A program made the translations under genes and the position numbers. This document shows positions 10,730 through 62,892 of a stretch of 64,000 nt of DNA, one piece after another. Source of the stretch: Microtetraspora fusca (GTDB lineage: Bacteria; Actinomycetota; Actinomycetes; Streptosporangiales; Streptosporangiaceae); the NCBI RefSeq assembly GCF_001570365.1, contig NZ_BBYK01000047.1, positions 144,900 to 208,899 on the forward strand, written 5' to 3'. The notes below the pieces were generated by a model. That model saw only the letters and a list, made by a program, of their open reading frames with translations, did no database searches and was not told the DNA's origin. Each line of letters opens with the position of its first letter. Positions within the stretch are counted from its first letter, which is position 1.

Positions 10730-12850
10730 TCAGGCGGGGATCAGTTCGTGCAGCGTCGCGGGCGTGTACGCCCGCGACCCCGCCGGCAGGCCCTCCGGAG
10801 CCTCCAGCCCGATGTACGTGGCGTGCCCGGCCGACGACGCCTTTTTCCGCAGCAGGTCGGCCAGGTAGCGGACCCGCAGGTAGTCGCGCTCCACGATCGA
10901 GCGCACCAGCAGGGAGGCGGTGACCCGGTTGCCCTCGACCTGGTTGAAGCCGGGATGCCCCTTCAGGTAGAGGTGCAGCCATTTCACCCGCCAGTCGCCG
11001 TCGTCACCGCGGAGGAAAACGAGCGGCAGCGCGACCCGGCCGGAGCCCCGCAGGTCGGACTTCATGCGTACGGTGCGCGGCTCGAATGGCCGGCCTTTCT
11101 GTTCGGCGTCCCTGGTCATGTAGCCGAAGAACGCCTCGGCGGCCTCGTGGAACTGCTCACCCGCGTAGATGTTGACCTGGGGAATGATGATCGGCTGTGT
11201 CGCGTCGGCGAGACGGATGTCGATGAACTCCGAAGCGCCGTGCGGCGCGGGCGCCTCGGTGAGGTCGCCGGAGTACACGGCGAAGCCGTTGGCGTAGTTC
11301 GTCCACGAGATGTGCGTCGGATTGTCGTACGAGGCGTCGAGCATGAGCGCGGACAGGTCGTAGTCGGTGCGCCGCTCGGCCTGGCGCCAGTGGACGAAGA
11401 ACCTGAGCAGCTCGCCGTCCACCCGCGAGAGCGAACCGCGGGGCAGCATGCCGAGCCCGGGTGAGACGGCCTTGCCGGACAGCGGCAGGGCGACGTCGAG
11501 CACGTCGGGATCGACGATCAGCTCGCCGGGGTCGGGGAGGCGCCGGGCGATCTCCTCGTCCAGGACGGCGAGTGCCCGCGACACGAGGTCCACCTCCAGC
11601 GGCGGGCGGGAGTCGGCCGCCGCCCACGCCCTGCCGTACCGGTTGGTGAAGACGCGGCCGGCGGCGGGGGCGAGCCGGTTCTGCAGGTGCTCGCGCAGGG
11701 ACAGCAGCACGCGGCCGGAGGCGCCGGCCGCGGCTCGCTCCGCGGCGTCGAGTACGGCCGACGCGGACACGTCGCCGGTACGCAGCAGGTGGTCGAGGCG
11801 GCGCAGCAGCGCGCCGGGCGCCTTCTCCAGCAGTTCGACGGCGTCGGCGGTGCGGCCCGCCGACAGGGCGGCCTCGACGCGGCTGTCGAAGCCGGCGGCC
11901 CCGCGTACGCCCCTGGCCACCTCGAAGACGCCGGCGGCACGCGGGAACTGCGGGTACTCGTGGGGATGCAGCCGCTCGCCGAGCCGCTTCCACTGCTCCC
12001 TGTGCCGCGGCACGTCGCCGAGCTTGGCCGGGGTGGCGACGGTGTCCAGGGCCCGCAGGAGGGCACGGCGCTCGGCGCGGCGGAACGAGCGGAACCTGGT
12101 GGGCGTGGCCAGCGTGACGTCGCCCCCGGAGCAACCGCAGGCGAGCCGCAGCACGTCGGTCACCGTGTCGACAAGCAGCGGCTCGCCGGCGGCCAGCCGT
12201 ACCTCGTTGATGACGGCACGGTTCTCGCGAACGGGGATGCGCTCCGGCTGGCCGGCGCAGAACGACGCCAGGGTACGCAGGGCCGCCAGGTCCTCGGCGG
12301 CGAGCGGCGTCTCCGCGCCCGCCAGCGAGAAGTAGAGGTCGCGCGCCTCGGACTCCAGGCTCCCGCCCGGCTCCAGCACGGTCACCCGGTCCCCGGCGAG
12401 CGGGATCAGCTCGGCGTGCGCGGCCAGCAGGTCGGCGTACGCGTGCGGGTAGCGGCCGTAGCCCGGCAGCGTCAGCAGGTCGAGCGTGGACGGCTGGACG
12501 CGCGCGGCGGCGACCGGGTCGAGCAGCGCCTCGCGCAGCAGACCGGCCCAGAACTCCAGGGTGTCGGGCACATTCGCGGGAAAGTCGATGAAGTAGGCGT
12601 TGTGCTGGACGTGGTCGCCGACCAGGCGGCGCACGCCGGCCAGGACCCGTACGCCGAGATCGACCACGGTCCCGCCGGGCAGCCGCGACAGGCGTTCGAG
12701 CAGGGCCGCCGAGCAGGTGAAGCCGACGCTCAGCAGCGCGGCGTCGAGCTGGCGGGCGGCCACCTCGCCCCAGCCCGGTGTGGAGTCGACGGGGGCGTCG
12801 ATGGGAACTCGCAGCCGCCCGGTGATGACGAGGTTCTCCAGAGTGTCCAC
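10730..12850 (-). CDS. Large protein resembling the MXAN_6230/SCO0854 family, without RING cysteines
   Basis: 706 residues from a GTG at 12850. The central segment (about 190-330: ERIPVRENRAVINEV, RFRSFRRAERRALLRALDT, HREQWKRLGERLHPHEYPQF) matches what I recall of the MXAN_6230/SCO0854 family of large cytoplasmic proteins, some members of which sit near ter-type stress genes. The usual N-terminal RING-like cysteine cluster is not visible. The C-terminal 200 residues form a beta-rich part (SWTNYANGFAVYSGDLTEAP, VALPLVFLRGDDGDWRVKW). There are no membrane segments. It stands alone here with no ter gene nearby. Family call tentative; function unknown. Confidence 0.5.
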   Translation of the reverse strand: MDTLENLVITGRLRVPIDAPVDSTPGWGEVAARQLDAALLSVGFTCSAALLERLSRLPGGTVVDLGVRVLAGVRRLVGDHVQHNAYFIDFPANVPDTLEFWAGLLREALLDPVAAARVQPSTLDLLTLPGYGRYPHAYADLLAAHAELIPLAGDRVTVLEPGGSLESEARDLYFSLAGAETPLAAEDLAALRTLASFCAGQPERIPVRENRAVINEVRLAAGEPLLVDTVTDVLRLACGCSGGDVTLATPTRFRSFRRAERRALLRALDTVATPAKLGDVPRHREQWKRLGERLHPHEYPQFPRAAGVFEVARGVRGAAGFDSRVEAALSAGRTADAVELLEKAPGALLRRLDHLLRTGDVSASAVLDAAERAAAGASGRVLLSLREHLQNRLAPAAGRVFTNRYGRAWAAADSRPPLEVDLVSRALAVLDEEIARRLPDPGELIVDPDVLDVALPLSGKAVSPGLGMLPRGSLSRVDGELLRFFVHWRQAERRTDYDLSALMLDASYDNPTHISWTNYANGFAVYSGDLTEAPAPHGASEFIDIRLADATQPIIIPQVNIYAGEQFHEAAEAFFGYMTRDAEQKGRPFEPRTVRMKSDLRGSGRVALPLVFLRGDDGDWRVKWLHLYLKGHPGFNQVEGNRVTASLLVRSIVERDYLRVRYLADLLRKKASSAGHATYIGLEAPEGLPAGSRAYTPATLHELIPA

Positions 12851-52599: not shown

Positions 52600-53763
52600 T
52601 CACGGTGTCGAGTGCTCCGCCTCGGCGGTGGCGCGTTCCCGCACCCGCGCGACGACCACCGACTTCGTGAACTCTCGACTCACCCGCACCAGCCAGGCGC
52701 TCTCCGAGGTGATCGACGGATCGACGTCGTGGAAGGGGTGCTCGGCGTTGTAGTTGCGCCCGGCGGCATAGCCGATCAGGGACGCCGCGATCACCGCGGC
52801 CTCCAGTGTGGCCGGATCCGCCGCTGGGCCCACCCACTGCGGCACGGACGGGTGCGCGTACGGCCGGAGCGCGAGTTGCGCGTCACGGATCTCGATGACC
52901 CGCCGATAGAGGGCGAACTCGGTGTCCCACAGCACTTTCGCGGTCTCGATCAACGCGATCTGCGGTCGGGCCAGCCGCAGTGCCCTCCACAGAGGGTCCG
53001 TCTGTCGATGACGGATGAACGCCCGCACCCAGCGCAGCGGCGCGGCCAGCCACGTTCCCCAAGCGGTGAGGGTGGCCCCGATGAGCCAGAGCAGGATGCA
53101 CGTCACGCCGATCATCGTCCCGATCGGAAGGACGGTGGCCAGCGACTGCCCGGTGAGCAGCGTGATCACCGGCCGGACTCCGGACCAACCGGCCCAGATG
53201 ATCCCGACGGCGGCTCCGGCAACGACGAAATGCAATCCGACCCGCAGAGTGGTGGTTTCAGCGTGTGGCACATAGCGGCTGATGGTCCGCATGAAGGCGA
53301 CCACGCAAACCGTGATATAGAGGAAAAACACCGCCAGGTAGCCCACCACTTGCGGGGTGTTGGAATAGACGTTGACGAAGTTGCGCGTGTAAGTGGTCTC
53401 GGCCGCGATCAACAGTACGGCCATCAGGGTTACCGCCCCGGCGAGGATGATTCCGTACCGGCGCAACCATCGCTTCGTGTGCTCGGGGATGGCGATGCTA
53501 TGCCCGAGCGCGCCGAGAAAGTAGGCCGCCGCCATCTCCAGAGAATTGCCAACGAACCGGGCCGTATTGGGCATCAGCTCATAGCGACTGACCAGGTCCA
53601 GCGTCGGGTGCGCCATGAACGCCATGGCCAGCCCGAGGCAGAGGAAGAACGCCGCCAGATAGTGCAGACCCAGAGCCCGCTGGTCTCGGCGTACGCGAAA
53701 CAGCTTGTATCCTGCGACACCGACGGCGAGCGCGCAGGCGCAGTAGTTCAGCCAGTGAAGCAT
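52600..53763 (-). CDS. MAB_1171c-like integral membrane protein
   Basis: 387 residues. About seven membrane helices fill residues 1-240 (for example YLAAFFLCLGLAMAFM, VGYLAVFFLYITVCVVAFM and a last one near 225). A cytoplasmic C-terminal region follows (ALRLARPQIALIETAKVLWD, then RRVIEIRDAQLALRPYA). This matches the MAB_1171c family of putative transporters, usually encoded after an Xre and an ImmA-like peptidase gene, as here. It starts four bases after the peptidase stop. A role in sensing or immunity for the adjacent peptide cluster is inference. Confidence 0.78.
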   Translation of the reverse strand: MLHWLNYCACALAVGVAGYKLFRVRRDQRALGLHYLAAFFLCLGLAMAFMAHPTLDLVSRYELMPNTARFVGNSLEMAAAYFLGALGHSIAIPEHTKRWLRRYGIILAGAVTLMAVLLIAAETTYTRNFVNVYSNTPQVVGYLAVFFLYITVCVVAFMRTISRYVPHAETTTLRVGLHFVVAGAAVGIIWAGWSGVRPVITLLTGQSLATVLPIGTMIGVTCILLWLIGATLTAWGTWLAAPLRWVRAFIRHRQTDPLWRALRLARPQIALIETAKVLWDTEFALYRRVIEIRDAQLALRPYAHPSVPQWVGPAADPATLEAAVIAASLIGYAAGRNYNAEHPFHDVDPSITSESAWLVRVSREFTKSVVVARVRERATAEAEHSTP

Positions 53764-53766
53764 CCA

Positions 53767-54270
53767 TCACCGCGTATCAAAGATCGAGCCGACGCGGGCC
53801 AGACCATCGGCGAGCTCGGGGGCGACCGATCCGGCCGACCGGCGACGGGCCCGCTGCGCGACCATCGAGGCCACCAGTTCGGCCTCCTGTTCTTCCGCCG
53901 CGGAGTAGTCGGTCCGGCCGAGCACTCGCCGGACCAGGTCCACGCTGAGGTTGGGTAACAGAAGTTTGGGCAGGGCCTCGAGTTTGGCATCGCCGATGTG
54001 TCCGCAAAGGAGATGTCCCACCTCGTGGAGCAGGATGTGCTCCCGGTGTAATCGGGTGGTGCTGGCGGCGTAGAAGATGTAGTCGGCCTCGTCGGTGGCG
54101 ACCAGCGCACCGCATTGCACGGCGCCACCCGGCATCGGCATCAACTCGACGATCCGACCGCGCCGCTCGGCGAGCGCGGAGATGAACACGTCGGGATCGA
54201 AAGGGGCGGGGATCGACAGCTGACCGACGACCCGCTGGCACTTGCGCCAGGTCGCCCGGTCAATCGCCAT
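53767..54270 (-). CDS. ImmA/IrrE-like zinc metallopeptidase
   Basis: 167 residues. The zinc site HEVGH is at 82-86 in REHILLHEVGHLLCGH, with a third ligand likely from EEQEAELVASMVA. A small N-terminal domain precedes. Unlike the gene at 6289 it has no helix-turn-helix of its own; that is encoded by the overlapping upstream gene (11-bp overlap). Such peptidases typically cleave the partner Xre protein or a membrane-linked signal. Confidence 0.85.
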   Translation of the reverse strand: MAIDRATWRKCQRVVGQLSIPAPFDPDVFISALAERRGRIVELMPMPGGAVQCGALVATDEADYIFYAASTTRLHREHILLHEVGHLLCGHIGDAKLEALPKLLLPNLSVDLVRRVLGRTDYSAAEEQEAELVASMVAQRARRRSAGSVAPELADGLARVGSIFDTR

Positions 54271-54700
54271 CGCGCCCCGCTAACCCCTTGCGTCGCGCTT
54301 CACGCCGCCCGATCGCCTCGATCATGTCGCTGATCGTGTCGAGCCCTTCAGGCGACAGCGTGACCGCGCGTAGGGCGATCTGGCGTACCGCGTTATCTCG
54401 TAGCGCCCCGAGTAGTTCCAGCTCTTCCACGATCCGCTCGCTCTGCTCATCGTCGAAAAAGTAGGCCGGGGGAACCTGGAAGAACTGCGCGAGCGCTTCC
54501 AGATGGCGCTTGGTCGGATTGGTTCGGCGGCCATTGCGCAGCTGCCACAGATAGGTGGCCGAGAAGCTCTCGCCGGTCGCCTCCCGGCAGGCACCGGCCA
54601 CCTCCTCGTTGCGGTACTGCTCCCGGTCTGGGCGCCGGACAACCTCGAAGAGGCGGTTGATCTTCTCGGCGAGAGTCGACCGGACGGGTGGCTCAACCAT
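54260..54700 (-). CDS. Xre family regulator
   Basis: 146 residues. The helix-turn-helix occupies about 25-80, with EEVAGACREATGESFSATYL and a WQLRNGRRTNPTKRHLEALA recognition/support helix, typical of EspR-like Xre proteins in mycobacteria and relatives. A helical C-terminal part follows. GGGGAGAG precedes the ATG. It diverges from the first precursor cassette, and the inverted repeat at 54791-54832 lies between them. Confidence 0.88.
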   Translation of the reverse strand: MVEPPVRSTLAEKINRLFEVVRRPDREQYRNEEVAGACREATGESFSATYLWQLRNGRRTNPTKRHLEALAQFFQVPPAYFFDDEQSERIVEELELLGALRDNAVRQIALRAVTLSPEGLDTISDMIEAIGRREARRKGLAGRDGD

Positions 54701-54790
54701 CGGTCACGCTCTCCCCTTCTATAACAGGCGAATCCCGCCAGGACTGTTGACGGAGCCCACAAGCTCCATCATTCTAGCGATTCCGGACCT

Positions 54791-54832
54791 TAGCTGAGAT
54801 GAAAGTTCTGCGTCATTGTTTCATCTCCGCTA
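54791..54832. promoter_or_regulatory. Inverted-repeat operator of precursor cassette 1
   Basis: TAGCTGAGATGAAA and TTTCATCTCCGCTA, 14-bp arms matching at 13 positions, spaced by 14 bp, ending 22 bp before the first precursor ATG. A second copy stands at the same place in cassette 2. Confidence 0.75.
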
Positions 54833-54854
54833 TGAGACTCCAAGGAGGTGAATC

Positions 54855-55070
54855 ATGAGCACTCTCGCCGACCACACCAACACCATCTCCCCCGGGAGGT
54901 TCGGTGACCTGACGGAGACCACCCGCGGCCGCGGCCTGACCGCGGCCACGCCCGTACTGGCCACCCCGTCGGCCGTGGCCCTCGGCGTCGCCATCGGCAT
55001 GGCCGCCTTCCACGCCGGTTACATGTACGGCATCGCCCGCAGCATGGCCGAAGGCACCGTCGCCAACTGA
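54855..55070 (+). CDS. Linaridin-type precursor peptide A1
   Basis: 71 residues after a very strong ribosome-binding site (AAGGAGGTGAATC). Leader MSTLADHTNTISPGRFGDLT and a Thr-rich junction end in PVLATP at 33-38, the PxxxTP motif of linaridin precursors. If cut as in cypemycin, the core starts at Ala36 (ATPSAVALGVAIG...) and has 36 residues, hydrophobic and Gly/Ala-rich, ending in EGTVAN. There is no Cys. Few Thr are available for dehydration. Confidence 0.78.
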   Translation: MSTLADHTNTISPGRFGDLTETTRGRGLTAATPVLATPSAVALGVAIGMAAFHAGYMYGIARSMAEGTVAN

Positions 55071-55095
55071 CCCCTAGACGCGAGGGACATGATCC

Positions 55096-55311
55096 ATGCC
55101 ATTACTGGCTGAGAAGGCGAACGCCGACCCGGCGCTCGCCGCGATCTCGATCTACAGCACTGAGCCCTGCCACGAAATCGGCGGGGCGCCGGTGCTCGCC
55201 ACACCCGCGACAATCGTGGGCGTGGCCGCCGGCGTGGGCCTGGTCGGCTCAGTGGTCGGCCTGTTCGCAGCCGGCTACGCGATCGGCCACAGCGGCACCT
55301 TGCCGAAATAG
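55096..55311 (+). CDS. Linaridin-type precursor peptide B1
   Basis: 71 residues. A different leader, MPLLAEKANADPALAAISIY, again leads to PVLATP (32-37). The predicted core begins ATPATIVGVAAGVG, close to the ATPATP start of cypemycin, and ends in FAAGYAIGHSGTLPK. It contains GxxxG-like spacing. The only Cys (25) is in the leader. It is 25 bp downstream of A1, so both are on one transcript. Confidence 0.78.
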   Translation: MPLLAEKANADPALAAISIYSTEPCHEIGGAPVLATPATIVGVAAGVGLVGSVVGLFAAGYAIGHSGTLPK

Positions 55312-55322
55312 CTCCGGACGAA

Positions 55323-55365
55323 CCCGTTGCCGGGGCACCGCCGACCCTGGCATCCCGGCAACGGG
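55323..55365 (+). terminator. Hairpin ending precursor cassette 1
   Basis: CCCGTTGCCGGG pairs exactly with CCCGGCAACGGG over a 19-base loop. Identical arms recur after cassette 2. Confidence 0.75.
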
Positions 55366-55526
55366 CCGATGCCCCAGCCATCTCGACCAGCCGCTCACCC
55401 CACACCCTCGGCTTCACGTCCGCGGAAAGAAGCCGTCCGTCCAGCCGCCTCAGTGCGAGCTTGATCGGCGTGCTGCTCTGCAAACGGGTCAAGCCCAGCC
55501 GATACGGCCCTGGCGGACCCTTGCTT

Positions 55527-55569
55527 TAGCTGATATGAAAGGCACGGCTATCTAGCTTCATTTGAGCTA
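55527..55569. promoter_or_regulatory. Inverted-repeat operator of precursor cassette 2
   Basis: TAGCTGATATGAAA and CTTCATTTGAGCTA, 11 of 14 positions symmetric, spaced by 15 bp, ending 20 bp before the A2 ATG. The left arm differs from that of cassette 1 at one base. Confidence 0.72.
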
Positions 55570-55589
55570 CAACTCCAAGGAGGTGAATC

Positions 55590-55778
55590 ATGAGCACTCT
55601 CGCCGACTACACCAACGCCGTCTCCCCCGAGACGTTCGGTGACCTGACGGAGACCACCGCTGGTCGCGGCCTGACTGCGGGGACCCCCGTACTGGCCACG
55701 CCCGCCGTGGTCGTGACCATGGTCGCGGCGTTCGCGGCCGGCTATGCGATGGGCCGCAGCGGCACCGTGCCGAAGTAG
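55590..55778 (+). CDS. Linaridin-type precursor peptide A2
   Basis: 62 residues. The leader is nearly that of A1 (MSTLADYTNAVSPETFGDLT) with PVLATP at 33-38, and the same ribosome-binding site. The core, from Ala36, is 27 residues: ATPAVVVTMVAA, then FAAGYAMGRSGTVPK. The last 15 residues match the end of B1 at 12 positions, although the leader is of the A type. No Cys. Confidence 0.78.
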   Translation: MSTLADYTNAVSPETFGDLTETTAGRGLTAGTPVLATPAVVVTMVAAFAAGYAMGRSGTVPK

Positions 55779-55863
55779 CCCCGGACAACCCGTTACCGGT
55801 GCCACGCAGCTGCCCAACTGACAGCCCGATACGAACGGCGGCTCACCACAATGGAGATCATCC

Positions 55864-56055
55864 ATGACACTGCTCGCTGAGAAGGTGAACGCCGACCCCG
55901 CGTTCGACGCGATCTCGATCCACAGCACTTACCCCGTCCACACGAGCGTCGAGGTGCCGGTGCTGTGCGTCACGGCGACCATGGGGGCCGCAAGCGGGCT
56001 CAGCACGGCGAACGTCGGAGCCGTGAACGGCGGAACCGTGCTCACCATCGCCTAG
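55864..56055 (+). CDS. Linaridin-type precursor peptide B2
   Basis: 63 residues. B-type leader (MTLLAEKVNADPAFDAISIH). The motif is altered to PVLCVT (32-37), so the proline is lost and a Cys appears at 35. The tail ATMGAASGLSTANVGAVNGG, then TVLTIA, differs from the other three. It may be a specialised partner peptide or a degenerating copy. Confidence 0.68.
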   Translation: MTLLAEKVNADPAFDAISIHSTYPVHTSVEVPVLCVTATMGAASGLSTANVGAVNGGTVLTIA

Positions 56056-56115
56056 TGCGATAAGCCGCGACTTCGGCGGCCCCAAACCCCCAGCGGCCGC
56101 GAAAGCCCTGGATAA

Positions 56116-56155
56116 CCCGTTGCCGGGGCGGCGCTGACTCTGACCCGGCAACGGG
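56116..56155 (+). terminator. Hairpin ending precursor cassette 2
   Basis: Same 12-bp arms as at 55323 (CCCGTTGCCGGG and complement) with a 16-base loop. It separates the precursors from the enzyme genes. Confidence 0.75.
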
Positions 56156-56187
56156 CCCGATCCAGGAACGAGCCAGGAAACAACCCC

Positions 56188-58137
56188 ATGAAAACACCAG
56201 CCAAGCGCCGCCCCCGACTGCTGGCCGCCCTGTCAGCCCTGTCCGGACGCGGCACCCGAGCCTCCATCGAGTCGCTGTCCACACTGTCCAGATCGCAGGT
56301 GCTGACCTGGACCGAGCGGTTGAATTCGGTGACCCACCTTCTCGCCAGCCTGGAATACCTCGCCCGTCCCAAGGACCGGGAGTGGGGTGGTGCCAACAAC
56401 TGGGACGTCACCCGCCGCATGTTCCACGACCGGGCACCCCGCTTCGCCAAGGCCCTGGACCTGGTCGCCGATCCTCGGGTCAGCACCGCCCTGCACGCCG
56501 GCCGCGCCGTCGCCGCGGCCGCGCTCTGGCTTCCGCTGTCCCCTCGGCAACGAGTCGCCGTCAACACGGTGCTCACCGGCAGCCAGGCCGCCCTGCACGC
56601 GCAGAACCTCTACGGAAGCGACGGGGCCGACCAGATCTCCTTCCTCGTGCAGGCGCTGACCACCGTCGCCCGGACCGGTCACCGCCGGCCCGCCGTCGCC
56701 GACGCCGCCCTCTGGTTCGTCTCGCTGCAGTCGGTGCTGTCCTACACGGTCTCCGGATGGGCCAAGCTCCCCAGCGATACCTGGCGCAGTGGGCGCGCCC
56801 TGCCCAACATCATCCGCACCCACACCTACGGCGACCCGGACATCTGGAAGCTGATGCGCCGCTTCCCCCGGCTGACCCGGCTCGCCGCGCATGGCGTCCT
56901 CACCTTCGAGTGCTCGTTCCCCCTGGTCTTCGCCTTCCGTGGCCGGCCCGCGCCGTACTTCCTCGGTATCGCCGGGATCTTCCACATCGTCAACGCGCGA
57001 ATGATGGGACTCGGCCGGTTCTTCTGGGCCTTCGCCGCCACCTATCCGGCGGTGCTTTACACGACCGGACCACGCGAACGCACCGAACCACATGACGTGG
57101 TCAGCCGTCGCCACGATGCCCTGCCGGCCACCGTGGCCGCCGCCGCGCTCACCCTGTTCGCCACCGGCCAGGTGATCCGTGCCCGCCGGCGCCGGATCGT
57201 CACCCGAGGACGCGGCGACGAGCGTACGCTGACCACCTCAGCGGGCAACACCCTGGCCTACCGCGTTCTCGGCGAGGACGCGGCGGAGACCGGTCCGGTG
57301 GTCATCCTGGAAAGCGGCCTCGCCTCCACGAGCGAACACTGGGAACGGATCGCCACTCAGCTGGCGCGACACTTCACCACAGTCACCTACCAGCGGGCCG
57401 GCTACGGCGGCAGCCGATACCAGGCCGACGGCGAATATCACTTCGACGCCATAGTGGACGACCTGACCGAGGTGGCCAAGCACGTCGCAGGTGATCGTCC
57501 CATCGTGCTGGTCGGCCACTCCCTCGGCGGCTACCTCTCGCTGCTGGCCGCCGAACGACTCGGCGCCCAGGTGCGGGGCATCGCGCTCATCGACTCCAGC
57601 CATCCGGCCGAGCTGCAGCGTTCCATCCGGCAAGCCGAAGGCGGCCAGGTGCTGACCAACTCGCTGGCGCTCATGGCCCCGTCGATGGAGCTCGGGCTCG
57701 GCTCGCTGCTACGGCGTCCCGAATGGCTGAAGCGGATCCCGCCCGAGGCGCGAGCCACCGCCCTGGCCCAGTACCGCGACGCCAAAATGTGGGCCGCCGC
57801 CCGCCGGGAGTGGAAGGTCGTCAAGGAGAAGTTCGAGGAGTTCGACGGCGTCCTGCCCAGGATCACCGCCCCCCTCGTGGTCATCACCGCGAGCCAGACC
57901 GCCGCTACTGACGCCGTGCAGGTGGATCTGCACGATGAGTTCGCAGCCGCCGCCCCACAGGCGCAGCAGCATCTCATCGAGGGCGCCGACCACGACGAGA
58001 TCCTCACCGACGCCGACCGGGCCGCCGAAGTGAGCAAGATCCTCACCGCGTTCCTTGACGACCTGCACGACACACCCTCCGACGACGGCGGGCGGGAACG
58101 ATCCGCCCGGCGGCAGCGCGATGGGGGCGAGAAGTGA
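56188..58137 (+). CDS. CypH-like protein: HTTM membrane domain fused to alpha/beta hydrolase
   Basis: 649 residues. Residues 40-320 form an HTTM (gamma-carboxylase-like) membrane region, with helices such as VFAFRGRPAPYFLGIAGIFH. Residues 345-630 form an alpha/beta hydrolase with nucleophile Ser445 in VGHSLGGYL and the catalytic His in GADHDEI. This domain pair is that of CypH/LinH proteins, required together with CypL for linaridin modification, probably Thr dehydration or isomerisation at the membrane. The next gene starts in its stop codon. Confidence 0.82.
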   Translation: MKTPAKRRPRLLAALSALSGRGTRASIESLSTLSRSQVLTWTERLNSVTHLLASLEYLARPKDREWGGANNWDVTRRMFHDRAPRFAKALDLVADPRVSTALHAGRAVAAAALWLPLSPRQRVAVNTVLTGSQAALHAQNLYGSDGADQISFLVQALTTVARTGHRRPAVADAALWFVSLQSVLSYTVSGWAKLPSDTWRSGRALPNIIRTHTYGDPDIWKLMRRFPRLTRLAAHGVLTFECSFPLVFAFRGRPAPYFLGIAGIFHIVNARMMGLGRFFWAFAATYPAVLYTTGPRERTEPHDVVSRRHDALPATVAAAALTLFATGQVIRARRRRIVTRGRGDERTLTTSAGNTLAYRVLGEDAAETGPVVILESGLASTSEHWERIATQLARHFTTVTYQRAGYGGSRYQADGEYHFDAIVDDLTEVAKHVAGDRPIVLVGHSLGGYLSLLAAERLGAQVRGIALIDSSHPAELQRSIRQAEGGQVLTNSLALMAPSMELGLGSLLRRPEWLKRIPPEARATALAQYRDAKMWAAARREWKVVKEKFEEFDGVLPRITAPLVVITASQTAATDAVQVDLHDEFAAAAPQAQQHLIEGADHDEILTDADRAAEVSKILTAFLDDLHDTPSDDGGRERSARRQRDGGEK

Positions 58138-58721
58138 TGGGGCCACGAACCGCTCCGCCGTCACCCCGGGCCGACCGCGGGCCGGCGGCCGCACTGGTGA
58201 TCGGGGGCCTGGCCGCCTGGTTCGGCGTGACCGTCATCAGCCAGCATCCCCAGCAGATCTTCGACCGGTTCCGGCGCTACGACTACACCGGCCTGCTCAT
58301 CGGCAACTGGCGGTTCTTCGCCCCGGAGCCGGCGCAGCACGACTTCCACATCCTGCACCGGGTGCTCACCGCGGACGACGTCCAGACCCCCTGGGCCGAG
58401 ACCACCCACATTCCCAAGCGCACCTGGCGGCAGATGGTCTGGTTCCCGGAACGGCGGCAGGACAAGGCGGTCTTCGACGTCTGCGCCGAACTGATCGTCT
58501 CGTTCGCGCAGCCCAAACTCGACATCACCAAGCTCCCGGCCTACCAGGTGCTCTGCGACCGCGTCGAGCTCGTCGTACGGGAGGAACACCGGGCGAACCC
58601 GACCCCCAAGGGATTCCAGTTCGTGATCGCCCGCAGTGCCGGATACGACGAGTCCGAGAATCCGGACTATCTGCTGATCTCCCAGTTCATTCCACTTCAG
58701 GAAGACCATCGCCATGAGTGA
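58134..58721 (+). CDS. CypL-like membrane-anchored protein
   Basis: 195 residues with one N-terminal membrane helix (ALVIGGLAAWFGVTVISQ, about 20-37) and a conserved NWRFFAPEPAQHDFHI segment, typical of the small partner of HTTM proteins (DUF5819-like; CypL/LinL in linaridin clusters). The rest is soluble. ATGA overlap with the CypH-like gene indicates a stoichiometric complex. Confidence 0.78.
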   Translation: MMGPRTAPPSPRADRGPAAALVIGGLAAWFGVTVISQHPQQIFDRFRRYDYTGLLIGNWRFFAPEPAQHDFHILHRVLTADDVQTPWAETTHIPKRTWRQMVWFPERRQDKAVFDVCAELIVSFAQPKLDITKLPAYQVLCDRVELVVREEHRANPTPKGFQFVIARSAGYDESENPDYLLISQFIPLQEDHRHE

Positions 58722-59478
58722 GATCGCCGACATCGGCTACGGCGCCCAGTTCGCCGACTTCTACGACCGCCTCTTTCCCGGTGGACCGGCCGTGGCGGCG
58801 ACCGCGACCTTCCTCGCCGAACTGCACCCCGGCGGAGACCTGCCGACCCTGGAACTCGGCGTGGGCACCGGGCGGATCGCGCTGCCCCTGGCCGACCTGG
58901 TCGGCCCGATCGTCGGCGTCGACTCCTCGCCGGAGATGCTCGACGTCCTGCGCGCCTCCCTCGCCGAACAGCCCCGCCCGGTCACCCCCGTGCACGGCGA
59001 CATCCGCGACTACGCCGACGATCGGCGCCACGGGCTCATCTACTGCGTCTGCGGCACCCTTTCGATGCTGCTGGACCCCGCCGAGCAGCAGCAGGTACTC
59101 AAGGTCGCGGCGGCCCACCTCGCCCCCGGCGGCACTGTGGTCATCGAAACCCACAACCCGAACTTCGCCCAGATGATCAACCAGGGCAGGGCACGTGACT
59201 CGTTCTTCGTCCCCTACCCGGCACCGGACACCGGGCTGCTCTCCTACTCCACCATCGACATCGACAACCGCATCTGGCACCTCGCGCACATCTGGATCGA
59301 CAACGGCCGTTCCCGGATCGCCCAGGAACTGAGCCGCCTGACCATGCCCGAAGAGGTCGACGGCTACGCCGAGCAGGCCGGGCTGACGCCGGCGGGCCGC
59401 TACAGCAACTGGGCCGGCGCCGAGTTCAGCGGCCAGGAGCCGATGTACATCTCGGTTTACCGCAAGGGCCCCGCGTGA
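58714..59478 (+). CDS. SAM-dependent methyltransferase, CypM-like
   Basis: 254 residues. Motif I is LELGVGTGRIALPLA (near 48-62), post-I VGVDSSPEML, motif II GLIYCVCGTLSMLL. CypM methylates the N-terminal Ala of cypemycin twice; three precursors here would expose N-terminal Ala after PVL, so the same role is probable. It overlaps the upstream gene by 8 bp and the transporter by one base. Confidence 0.85.
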   Translation: MSEIADIGYGAQFADFYDRLFPGGPAVAATATFLAELHPGGDLPTLELGVGTGRIALPLADLVGPIVGVDSSPEMLDVLRASLAEQPRPVTPVHGDIRDYADDRRHGLIYCVCGTLSMLLDPAEQQQVLKVAAAHLAPGGTVVIETHNPNFAQMINQGRARDSFFVPYPAPDTGLLSYSTIDIDNRIWHLAHIWIDNGRSRIAQELSRLTMPEEVDGYAEQAGLTPAGRYSNWAGAEFSGQEPMYISVYRKGPA

Positions 59479-61340
59479 TGGCACAGACGATGGAAGCGCA
59501 GCCGGACACGCCACAGGCGAGCGAGGCCGCGCAGACGACCGCATCCGCCGATCGGCCGGCTCCTCCGCCGCAGGACGGGTCACGCCACTGGATGAGGATG
59601 CTGGCCGGCTATATCCGGCCACACCGGGCCACCTTCATCACGGCCGCCGTCCTGCTCCTCGCCTCCAGCGTGCTCGGCCTGCTGCAGCCGCTCGCCGTAA
59701 GAACCCTCATCGACGAGTTGACCACCGGAACCGAGATCGGCCAAGCCCTGGCCATCGTGACGGTGCTCGTCTCGGTGGCCGCCGTCCTGCTCGGAATCGG
59801 CAACTATCTCACCCTGCGGACCGCCGAAGCGGTCGTCCTCGACGGACGACGTGGACTGATCCGCCACATGCTCCGTCTCTCCGTGCCGAGCATGCACAGC
59901 CAGGCGCCCGGCGACCTGATGGCCCGGGTCACCACGGACACCATGCTGCTGCGCCAGATCGCCAGCCAGGCGTTGATCGACCTGCTGACCGGCGGTCTGA
60001 TGCTTGCCGGGGCAGTGGTCCTGATGGGGGTGGTCGACGTGGTGCTGCTCGGCGTCACCGTCGTCGTCATCCTGCTGCTCGTCGTCACCATGGCGGTGAT
60101 CATGCCGCGGATCCGGATCGCCGCCCTACGCGCGCAGCAGTCGGTCGGGCAGATGGGCGCCGTCCTGGAGCGGGTCTTCGGGGCCTTCACCACCGTCAAG
60201 GCCTCCGGCATGGAGGCCGCGGAACTGGCCCGCGTCGACGCCCAGGCCCGTGCCGCCTATCAGCAAGGCGTGTCACTCGCCCGCTGGGGATCGGTGGGAG
60301 GCACCGCCGCCGGGCTGGCGATCCAGGTCGCCTTCCTGGTCGTCCTCGGGGTCGGCGGTGCCCGGGTGGCCGGCGGCGCCATGACCGTGTCGGCGTTGGT
60401 GGCCTTCCTTCTCTACGTGGCCTACCTGACACACCCGGTGATCCAACTGATGGGCGCGACCACCTATCTCCAGGCGGGCAGGGCGGCGCTGAGCAGGATA
60501 GCCCAGGTGAACACGCTGCCGGCCGAACCGCTCGACCTGCCGCTCCCCTCGCAGAACCCCCCGGCCAAGGTGGCAAGAGCGGAGCCGGACGGCGGAATCT
60601 CGTCCACACCGGCCTCCGTGACCTTCGATCAGGTCACCTTCACCTATCCCGGCCGCGCCGAACCGGCTCTGGGTGACTTCACCTTGACCGTGCCCTCCGG
60701 CGGCCTCACCGCGCTCGTCGGGCCATCCGGCTCGGGCAAGACCACCGTGCTCAAACTTCTGGAGCGGTTCTACGACCCGCAGCAGGGCCGAGTGCTCGTC
60801 GACGAGCAGAGCCTTGCCGACTGGCCTCTCAACAGCCTCCGGGCGAACATCGGCTACGTCGAGCAGGATGTCCCCGTGTTGGCCGGAACCCTCCGCGAGA
60901 ACGTCGCGTACGCGGCACCGGACGCCAGTGAGGACGACATCCGGGCCGTGCTGCGCCTTACCCGCCTCGATCCCCTGTTGCAGCGTCTCGGCGGGGACCT
61001 CGATGCGGAGATCCAGCACCGGGGCGTGTCGCTGTCCGGCGGCGAACGGCAGCGCGTCGCCATTGCCCGGGCTCTGCTGCGCAAACCCCGCCTGCTCCTG
61101 CTCGACGAGGCGACCTCGCAGCTCGACGCGGCCAACGAGGCCGCGTTGCGGGAGGTAATCCGGGAAATCTCCGGCGACACCACGGTCATCGTGGTCGCTC
61201 ACCGGCTGTCCACCGTGGTCCACGCGGCGCAAATCGTGGTGATGGTGGACGGCACAGCACAGTCCGCCGGAACGCATGCCGAACTCCTTCAGAATGACCC
61301 GCTCTACGCCCAGTTGGCGGCAGAACAGGCGCTGGCGTGA
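59478..61340 (+). CDS. ABC exporter (CypT-like), no peptidase domain
   Basis: 620 residues: an N-terminal Ala/Pro/Gln-rich tail, six membrane helices (about 45-330), and an ABC domain with Walker A GPSGSGKTT, signature SLSGGERQRVAIARALL and Walker B LLLLDEATSQLD. There is no C39 domain, so leader removal needs another protease; none is encoded beside it. The ATG forms TGATG with the methyltransferase stop; a GTG at 59475 is also possible. Confidence 0.88.
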   Translation: MAQTMEAQPDTPQASEAAQTTASADRPAPPPQDGSRHWMRMLAGYIRPHRATFITAAVLLLASSVLGLLQPLAVRTLIDELTTGTEIGQALAIVTVLVSVAAVLLGIGNYLTLRTAEAVVLDGRRGLIRHMLRLSVPSMHSQAPGDLMARVTTDTMLLRQIASQALIDLLTGGLMLAGAVVLMGVVDVVLLGVTVVVILLLVVTMAVIMPRIRIAALRAQQSVGQMGAVLERVFGAFTTVKASGMEAAELARVDAQARAAYQQGVSLARWGSVGGTAAGLAIQVAFLVVLGVGGARVAGGAMTVSALVAFLLYVAYLTHPVIQLMGATTYLQAGRAALSRIAQVNTLPAEPLDLPLPSQNPPAKVARAEPDGGISSTPASVTFDQVTFTYPGRAEPALGDFTLTVPSGGLTALVGPSGSGKTTVLKLLERFYDPQQGRVLVDEQSLADWPLNSLRANIGYVEQDVPVLAGTLRENVAYAAPDASEDDIRAVLRLTRLDPLLQRLGGDLDAEIQHRGVSLSGGERQRVAIARALLRKPRLLLLDEATSQLDAANEAALREVIREISGDTTVIVVAHRLSTVVHAAQIVVMVDGTAQSAGTHAELLQNDPLYAQLAAEQALA

Positions 61341-61371
61341 TCTGGAAGCCGGGCCGGGAAGGGCGGCCGGA

Positions 61372-62892
61372 GTGAATCACGCACAGTCCTTCGGCTCCGG
61401 CCGGGGCCGCGTCGACGCCGTGGTCGTCGGCTCCGGCCCCAACGGCCTGGCCGGGGCGCTCGTCCTCGCTGCGGCCGGCCTCGAAGTGCAGGTTTATGAG
61501 GCCGCCGACACCATCGGGGGCGGCACCCGCACCGAGCAGCTGACCCTGCCTGATTTCTGGCACGACGTCTGCTCCGCGGTCCATCCGATGGCGCTGGCGT
61601 CCCCGTTCTTCCGGGCGTTCGACCTGTCCCGGCACAATGTGCGGCTCCTGCAACCGGAGATCCCGTACGCCCATCCGCTCGACGGCGGTCGTGCCGGGCT
61701 GGCCTGGCGCGACCTGGACCGTACGGCACATGGGCTGGGTGCGGACGGTCCGGCGTGGCGGTCGCTGCTCGGCCCCCTGGTAGCCGGGTGGCAGCCCCTC
61801 GTCGACACGGCCATGTCCGACTTTCGCAGCCTCCCACGCAATCCCGGCATGGCGCTGCGGCTGGCGCTACGGATACTGGAACAAGGCTCGGCGCTATCGA
61901 GGGCCCGGTTCCGAAATGACGAGGCCCCCGCGCTACTCGCGGGTGTCGGCGGGCACGCCATCGCACCGCCCCAGGCGCTCGCCCCCGCCGGAGTGGGTCT
62001 CGTGCTGGCCGCCCTCGCACACGCGGTCGGTTGGCCGGTGCCGCAGGGCGGCAGCCACACCATCACCCGGGCGATGGCCGATGAATTGACCCGCCTCGGC
62101 GGGCGGATCACCACGGGCCAGCGGATCGACACCTTGGCGCAGCTGCCGCCCGCCCGCGTTGTCCTGCTCGACGTGGCGCCGGCCGGGCTGCTGCGCATCG
62201 CCGGTGATCTACTGCCAGACCGATACAGCCGCCAGCTGCGCGCCTTCCGGCCCGGTGGCGCCGCTTGCAAAGTCGACCTCGCGCTCGCCGGCCCAGTGCC
62301 ATGGGCGGCTGCTGGCTGCTCCCGGGCCGGCACACTGCATCTGGTCGGTTCGCGGGCTGAGGCGCTGGCCGCGGAACAGGCGGTCGCCGCCGGCCGGCAC
62401 GCGCAGCGGCCGTACGTCCTGGCGGTGCAGCCCGGCGTCGTGGACGCCGGCCGCGCGCCCGCCGGTCGCCACGTGCTGTGGACGTACGCGCATGTGCCGA
62501 ACGGCTCCCCCAGGGATGTCAGCGACCAGGTCATCGCGCAGGTAGAACGGTTCGCACCCGGATTCCGTGACCTGATCCTCGCCACGCATGTCGTCCCCGC
62601 CTCGGAGGCGCAGCAGCACAATCCCAACTATGTCGGCGGGGACATCTCCGGCGGCGCCACCACCCTGTGGCAGTTGATGATGCGCCCGGCTCCCCGCTGG
62701 GACCCGTACCGCACGCCGTTGCCCGGGGTCTACCTCTGCTCCGCCTCCACCCCGCCGGGCCAGGCGGTGCACGGCATGTCCGGGGTGCACGCCGCCGGCC
62801 GAGCTCTGCGCCACCGGTTCGGCATCCACACTGATCCACTTGATCTTGTCGCGTCCGCCGCATCGGGGAACGGAGCTGCGGCCCGACCCTAG
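61372..62892 (+). CDS. CrtI-like FAD/NAD(P) oxidoreductase
   Basis: 506 residues of the phytoene desaturase-like group. The dinucleotide site is VVVGSGPNGLAGAL (about 18-31), followed by GGGTRTEQLTLPDF and late signatures VYLCSASTPPGQAVHGMSG. It sits 31 bp after the transporter on the same strand, so it is very likely part of the peptide cluster as an oxidative tailoring enzyme. No CypD-type flavoprotein decarboxylase is present, consistent with cores that lack a C-terminal Cys. Confidence 0.85.
   Translation: MNHAQSFGSGRGRVDAVVVGSGPNGLAGALVLAAAGLEVQVYEAADTIGGGTRTEQLTLPDFWHDVCSAVHPMALASPFFRAFDLSRHNVRLLQPEIPYAHPLDGGRAGLAWRDLDRTAHGLGADGPAWRSLLGPLVAGWQPLVDTAMSDFRSLPRNPGMALRLALRILEQGSALSRARFRNDEAPALLAGVGGHAIAPPQALAPAGVGLVLAALAHAVGWPVPQGGSHTITRAMADELTRLGGRITTGQRIDTLAQLPPARVVLLDVAPAGLLRIAGDLLPDRYSRQLRAFRPGGAACKVDLALAGPVPWAAAGCSRAGTLHLVGSRAEALAAEQAVAAGRHAQRPYVLAVQPGVVDAGRAPAGRHVLWTYAHVPNGSPRDVSDQVIAQVERFAPGFRDLILATHVVPASEAQQHNPNYVGGDISGGATTLWQLMMRPAPRWDPYRTPLPGVYLCSASTPPGQAVHGMSGVHAAGRALRHRFGIHTDPLDLVASAASGNGAAARP

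Follow-up and report, generated by a model that had tools for sequence, protein, structure and literature searches.

A 64,000-nucleotide stretch of the Microtetraspora fusca genome (contig NZ_BBYK01000047.1, positions 144,900 to 208,899 of the forward strand; below, the window) carries a gene cluster for a ribosomally synthesized and post-translationally modified peptide (RiPP) that is assigned to the linaridin family by its enzymes and by the leaders of its precursors. Four small open reading frames (ORFs), A1, B1, A2 and B2, are followed by the genes H, L, M, T and O (Table 1). The cluster fits neither type A, having no decarboxylase and no Cys, nor type B, its LinH being fused, as these types are described in the literature passages available. 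On balance, it appears to belong to a branch of the family that makes several peptides at once by the mechanism proposed below.

Linaridin enzymes and precursors

The type-B reference cluster (L031) was found with the NCBIfam model NF033402, its precursor scoring 108.8 bits in the only one of 394 genomes over the cut-off. The cypemycin cluster (L073) was reached through the LinL search and identified by its precursor, and its methyltransferase reached 390 bits in the comparison with the PDB entry labelled as the cypemycin N-terminal methyltransferase (CypM). One genome, G468, holds both of these clusters. Identities to the counterparts in L031 were 35% for the HTTM domain, 25% for the hydrolase, 30% for L (over 176 amino acids (aa), E 1e-19), 50% for M, 36% for T and 56% for O, and profiles constructed from the window and L031 recovered HTTM, hydrolase, L and M in L073. 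The homology to LinH and LinL on which the initial annotation had staked its proposal of a linaridin cluster was thereby found against both references.

The cluster has a LinL homologue, an HTTM domain with an alpha/beta hydrolase, and PxxxTP precursors adjoining the enzymes, the motif being present in three of the four ORFs and absent from B2. With type-A linaridins (cypemycin, grisemycin, salinipeptins; L073) it shares the fused LinH, LinL, a methyltransferase and PxxxTP, but it has several precursors, no Cys pair (the A1, B1 and A2 cores are free of Cys), a methyltransferase of YunM type instead of CypM type, and no LinD-type flavoprotein (Cys decarboxylase) on its contig. Matches to the LinD-type family PF02441 were located on contigs C39, C47 and C58 of the genome, and none on the cluster contig C46. 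With type-B linaridins (legonaridin, mononaridin, YunM cluster; L031) it shares LinL, the HTTM protein, the alpha/beta hydrolase, the exporter, the oxidoreductase together with a YunM-type alpha-N-methyltransferase, and the PxxxTP leader, a Cys decarboxylase being absent from both. The cluster differs from type B in that a single ORF, H, with HTTM and hydrolase fused, stands in place of the separate LinE and LinG genes, in its at least two precursors, and in that the cores of the branch have approximately 7.5% Ser+Thr as compared to 21% (6/29) in L031. Corynaridin, according to the available passages of PMC9927463, shares HTTM, hydrolase, LinL, exporter and PxxxTP and likewise has no decarboxylase, but its enzymes are split, no methyltransferase is present, and the single precursor has seven Thr. 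The literature search gave no description of type-C linaridins as a published category. Georgiou et al. (2020) reportedly listed 561 linaridin clusters with unusual architectures, and members of the present branch may be among them.

Genes H to O form a tight operon in which the genes overlap or abut, as the initial annotation had stated, and its N-methyltransferase, exporter, oxidoreductase, PxxxTP leaders and paired precursors were also borne out. The methyltransferase had been called CypM-like; it is indeed predicted to be an N-methyltransferase, but it is closer to YunM (7wzf; 272 bits) than to CypM (7wzg; 43 bits). The HTTM residues Y186, K193, W199, E241 and H266 were invariant in all 26 loci compared, and in the hydrolase S445 was kept in 18 of 19 and H602 in 19 of 19. 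The search of solved structures with L found no relative (best chance match E 0.04), and for the HTTM profile it returned a single chance match, to an antibody (E 0.75). The HTTM family is presumably tied to vitamin K carboxylase; the sequence search did not show this link.

The four small ORFs, of 62–71 codons, were found where they had been placed, three of them with PVLATP and B2 reading PVLCVT. The cores of A1, B1 and A2 include one, two and two Thr, respectively, and no Cys, so the claim of Cys-free and Thr-poor cores also stood. The last residues of A1, B1, A2 and B2 are N, K, K and A, and near-perfect ribosome sites are located upstream of A1 and A2 (AAGGAGGTGA). When ORFs of 50–90 aa were scanned for P[VI]x[AVT]TP at residues 27–42, A1, B1 and A2 were the sole matches in the window; as the pattern was derived from the precursors themselves, it is the low background that is informative. 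In 498 kb of fetched loci the same scan gave 32 ORFs, 30 of them in 13 related clusters and two unrelated (L064:13371 and L076:14583).

A1 was conserved in L009 and related genes were present in L010 and L011, and B1 was 94% identical in Microtetraspora malaysiensis and 85–88% in Sphaerimonospora. Nonsynonymous (dN) and synonymous (dS) divergence from the M. malaysiensis counterparts was 0.020 and 0.113 for A1, 0.026 and 0.193 for B1, and 0.070 and 0.148 for A2, and B1 was constrained in comparison to Sphaerimonospora mesophila (dN 0.065, dS 0.493). The original claim of two duplicated cassettes with four precursors, all of them intact, was not supported: A2 is a chimera, and B2 no longer has the motif and is missing in the sister species M. 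malaysiensis, where the hairpin and H come straight after A2 and the gap between A2 and H is 129 bp instead of the 409 bp of the window. The leader DNA of B2 is 80% identical to that of B1 over 101 bp, and its core had no convincing DNA match among the related loci compared. B2 is regarded as a doubtful or decaying precursor. Because A2 is a chimera and the leader of B2 is joined to a foreign core, leader and core have been exchanged as modules. The PHROGs search of the four small ORFs gave no match.

Cleavage before ATPATP, with cores starting at Ala36 and Ala35, had been proposed initially. The cypemycin core we take to be the stretch after PxxxTP, and by analogy with the cypemycin-type precursor of L073 the cores of A1, B1 and A2 would start at Ser39, Ala38 and Ala39, so that a cut after PVLATP is considered more likely. 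A short C-terminal Pro motif (TLPK, TVPK, TLPN, ELPQ, QLPS, HPTLPHA) was seen by eye in B1, A2 and many precursors of L019–L021, L023 and L024; perhaps it is a follower signal.

Table 1. Features of the cluster and its flanks, with positions in the window.
Feature	Position	Strand	Description
DUF6545 membrane protein	52600..53763	-	accompanies the regulator
HEVGH protein	53767..54270	-	weakly M78 (ImmA/IrrE)-like, E 0.021, under cut-off; no match at 0.01
XRE-type regulator	54260..54700	-	divergent; helix-turn-helix matches under Pfam cut-offs
Palindrome before A1	54792..54832	.	AGCTGAGATGAA...TTCATCTCCGCTA; likely operator
Precursor A1	54855..55070	+	71 aa; PVLATP ends at residue 38; core 33 aa, 3 Ser/Thr, no Cys
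Precursor B1	55096..55311	+	71 aa; PVLATP ends at residue 37; core 34 aa, 4 Ser/Thr, no Cys
RNA hairpin after B1	55323..55365	+	z -2.77
Palindrome before A2, second copy	55528..55569	.	sequence match to first copy
Precursor A2	55590..55778	+	62 aa; core 24 aa; A-type leader with B1-like core end
B2 ORF	55864..56055	+	63 aa; B-type leader, unrelated core, PVLCVT in place of PxxxTP
RNA hairpin between B2 and linH	56116..56155	+	matches the first; z -2.58
H, linH-like	56188..58137	+	649 aa; HTTM domain ~34-300 fused to alpha/beta hydrolase ~350-620
L, linL-like	58134..58721	+	LinH partner; homology to LinL; weak DUF5819 match under Pfam cut-off
M, methyltransferase	58714..59478	+	S-adenosylmethionine-dependent, YunM-like; predicted N-terminal dimethylation
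T, ATP-binding cassette exporter	59475..61340	+	membrane and ATPase domains (Pfam); no peptidase domain seen in Pfam scan
O, oxidoreductase	61369..62892	+	flavin adenine dinucleotide (FAD)-dependent, CrtI/CrtO-like; likely start 61369, listed ORF begins 61276; type-B cluster orthologue

The branch, its cores and the HTTM domain

The closest match was M. malaysiensis (95% over H), of the family Streptosporangiaceae. H was detected at E <= 1e-30 in eight of the 345 genomes of the order, its own included, and in none of three congeners, and LinL at E <= 1e-4 in 25 of 394 genomes of the class and eight of 396 of the phylum; eight weak LinL matches of the class, short and within longer ORFs (one also in the phylum list), were left out of the loci. 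Altogether 27 stretches were examined, of which L032, included for a possible precursor but showing no cluster, and L081 were without HTTM/LinL, and both HTTM and LinL were present in 26 loci, i.e. 25 fetched ones and the window. Fused or overlapping H together with L, M and two or three PxxxTP precursors was found in 14 of these (about ten without close relatives): the window, L019–L024, L064–L069 and L078, including the close pairs window/L019, L020/L021, L023/L024 and L067/L068. The 14 clusters have 33 motif-bearing precursors, to which the window gives three, plus B2. T was present in all of them and O in 11 (not seen in L022, L066 and L078). The only other locus with fused H, L and M, the 15th, is that of cypemycin, with one precursor. 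Fused H without M was found in L070, L071 and L079 (zero, one and zero precursors), and the other eight loci had HTTM without a fused hydrolase and a precursor only in L031.

Some of the loci show peculiarities. In L069 (9306-11446) HTTM and hydrolase are encoded by separate frames that overlap, the result of a split of the gene or else of a frameshift, and a third precursor with PIMATP is located at 12094-12273. The single PVLTTP precursor of L071 (11315-11611), a locus with fused LinH and LinL and no methyltransferase, has a long charged tail.

The tree constructed of HTTM and LinL placed cypemycin and the type-B cluster as sisters (100%), and these two, L071 and six distant split loci were jointly separated from the rest with an ultrafast bootstrap of 100%. 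The other side was formed by the 14 clusters with L025, L070 and L079, and the inner nodes of the branch were partly weak (42–63%).

Core statistics were based on 32 cores, the third L069 core being left out, or on 22 after removal of ten cores of four close relatives. The 22 non-redundant cores consist of 47% Gly+Ala and 7.5% Ser+Thr, with 1.64 Thr per core and two Cys in total, whereas Ser+Thr make up 4/19 of the L073 core. Two of the 32 cores, L078_1 (also without Cys) and L022_2, have no Ser/Thr, and in L020_A and L021_A the sole Ser/Thr is the first core residue. The unusual composition noticed initially was thus confirmed, but it is not unique to this strain: it is typical of a branch that occurs in Streptosporangiaceae, in genus g87, to which the cypemycin genome belongs, and in others.

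The pattern GxxxG was observed 31 times as compared to 17.0±3.5 in shuffled cores, and [GA]xxx[GA] 166 times as compared to 128±6.3 (neither reached in 5000 shuffles). Spacing of i+3 showed no excess over shuffled cores, and GxxxxG was mildly enriched (24 vs 16.3; 106/5000). In a strict set reduced to seven cores, all dissimilar to one another, [GA]xxx[GA] was observed 55 times vs 42.2±3.7 (3/5000), while the excess of GxxxG weakened (11 vs 6.6±2.1; 208/5000). As a sequence pattern, this small-xxx-small spacing is alpha-helix-like.

SdpA-family loci (TIGR04034) were detected seven times, in six of 61 genomes, and in each of the seven (L084–L090) the SdpB-like HTTM neighbour of SdpA matched the LinH HTTM profile (window 56287–57069) at E <= 7e-11. 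Direct comparison of the LinH HTTM and SdpB-like profiles gave a probability of 98.7 and E 1.8e-16, with a score of 122 vs 13.2±2.0 in 100 column shuffles. The signature YxxSGxxKL...W..G.A was present in 24 of 26 LinH proteins and in a looser form in six of seven SdpB-like ones. By profile comparison, the HTTM domain of LinH is homologous to SdpB-like proteins, which points to residues for mutation. The kinship of LinL and SdpA is only suggestive (score 21.1 vs 12.6±2.6, reached by one of 100 shuffles); LinL as a plain SdpA was rejected, since no SdpA ORF was matched by the LinL profile at E <= 10. The Bacillus subtilis systems SdpABC and YitPOM produce hydrophobic peptide toxins (PMC6818787). 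The likeness to them is that the LinH-HTTM homologue adjoins SdpA and that a hydrophobic peptide toxin is matured, but in the available passages of that paper neither a precursor with PxxxTP nor a methyltransferase nor a fusion to a hydrolase is known from them.

Regulation and flanking genes

Each cassette has its own palindrome and its own hairpin. The pattern written from the two palindromes matched these two sites and none elsewhere in the 9.02-Mb genome, and palindrome-like sequences were seen by eye upstream of the A genes in L009–L011. The sigma-70 promoter scan found none, and the terminator scan gave one terminator-like site only, on the other strand.

The regulator, HEVGH and DUF6545 genes lie divergently upstream of the cluster in the window (52600–54700) and downstream of O in both Sphaerimonospora loci (L020, L021), so this triplet appears to travel with the cluster; it was not found in L022–L025. 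The adjoining clpP genes, considered as a candidate for self-resistance, are linked in M. malaysiensis (L009) but were not found in L010, L011, L022 and L023, and were dismissed as genome context.

Proposed mechanism and rival explanations

In the favoured reading, an XRE-type repressor would bind the palindromes before A1 and A2 and control two precursor transcripts, and the hairpins after each B gene would favour precursor over enzyme. LinL and the HTTM–hydrolase fusion LinH would recognize the leader and modify the core at the membrane. Thr dehydration is suspected as the task of LinH/LinL or crdG/E/L in the available passages of PMC9927463 and PMC7794033, and grmL is indispensable for grisemycin and a proposed epimerase according to those of PMC10373908. 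Because two of the cores have no Ser/Thr, Thr dehydration cannot be the sole task there, and because Ser/Thr are few or missing, LinH/LinL of this branch probably serve mainly for epimerisation or some other backbone step. The oxidoreductase would perform a further oxidation, a peptidase would cut the leader after PVLATP, the YunM-like enzyme would dimethylate the new N-terminus and the exporter would export the peptides. The mature forms of A1, B1 and A2, the last being shorter, are predicted to be hydrophobic alpha-helical peptides packing through small-xxx-small faces and acting together on the membranes of competing bacteria.

Several results weigh against this reading. The model NF033402 rejected the precursors, A1 scoring 15.1 bits (cut-off 35) and B1, A2 and B2 having no match; it is a detection model, not a chemical definition of a linaridin. 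A1 was weakly constrained in comparison to S. mesophila (dN 0.195, dS 0.252). Neither a leader peptidase nor an immunity gene was recognized, and the AlphaFold models of H and L, based on four close alignment rows, were poor (predicted local distance difference test 41.5 and 39.7). Since the i,i+4 pattern implies a homochiral helix, scattered D-residues would be unfavourable. An ancient A/B pairing across distant clusters was rejected, leader and core pairing agreeing in 15 of 28 cluster pairs with 104 of 256 flips as good; the pair was traceable only within close Streptosporangiaceae.

The YunM-like methyltransferase, the similarity of the oxidoreductase to that of type B and the at least one Ser/Thr kept in 30 of 32 cores would also suit an ordinary type-B-like cluster, in which the few Ser/Thr are dehydrated to dehydroalanine or dehydrobutyrine, the N-terminus is dimethylated and the precursors are redundant variants acting singly, as would corynaridin, a single peptide with all Ser/Thr dehydrated (passages of PMC9927463). 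This is rather unlikely, as LinH is split in type B and fused here, the branch is separate in the HTTM and LinL tree, at least two precursors are retained in 14 of 14 clusters, and two cores are without Ser/Thr. Quite improbable is a two-peptide bacteriocin logic only, i.e. helical pairs that owe little to the enzymes apart from export and N-methylation: the GxxxG-type spacing is enriched, but LinH/LinL are present in all 14 clusters (by construction, LinL or H being the bait), the putative active-site residues of LinH are invariant, and the leader ends in PxxxTP and not in the double-glycine of class IIb. Hallmarks of daptides are a C-terminal Thr, an aminotransferase and an oxidative decarboxylase with an RRE partner. 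A daptide-like system, i.e. hydrophobic multi-peptide helices with a modified terminus, is very improbable, for although M matched the daptide methyltransferase model NF041820 (82.6 bits, under the cut-off of 175) and daptides in the passages of PMC10036551 are multi-precursor, helical, synergistic haemolysins with a related methyltransferase, here no precursor has a C-terminal Thr, no aminotransferase family was among the Pfam/NCBIfam matches shown for the cluster proteins, and M is far closer to YunM. No paper treating both daptides and linaridins was found in the literature searched.

Returning to the linaridin branch with several peptides, the evidence of the cores predicts that the cluster works more like daptides or two-peptide bacteriocins. 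The branch seems to yield two or three hydrophobic helical peptides together, in place of a single Thr-rich one, and its key enzymes may do more than assumed. A wider proposal is put forward only tentatively: LinH/LinL of the branch would not mainly be Thr dehydratases but enzymes that change hydrophobic residues at C-alpha, by epimerisation or otherwise, so that helical, N,N-dimethylated membrane peptides of two components arise, and LinH and SdpB would share in their HTTM domains one ancient membrane-enzyme family with an invariant YxxSGxxKL...W...E...H signature, maturing hydrophobic peptide toxins across Gram-positive bacteria. With cores nearly without Ser/Thr, the branch separates dehydration from any other reaction of LinH/LinL and offers substrates of simple composition. 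Should the A and B peptides prove to act jointly, this would be a linaridin system of several components, similar in this respect to daptides and two-peptide bacteriocins.

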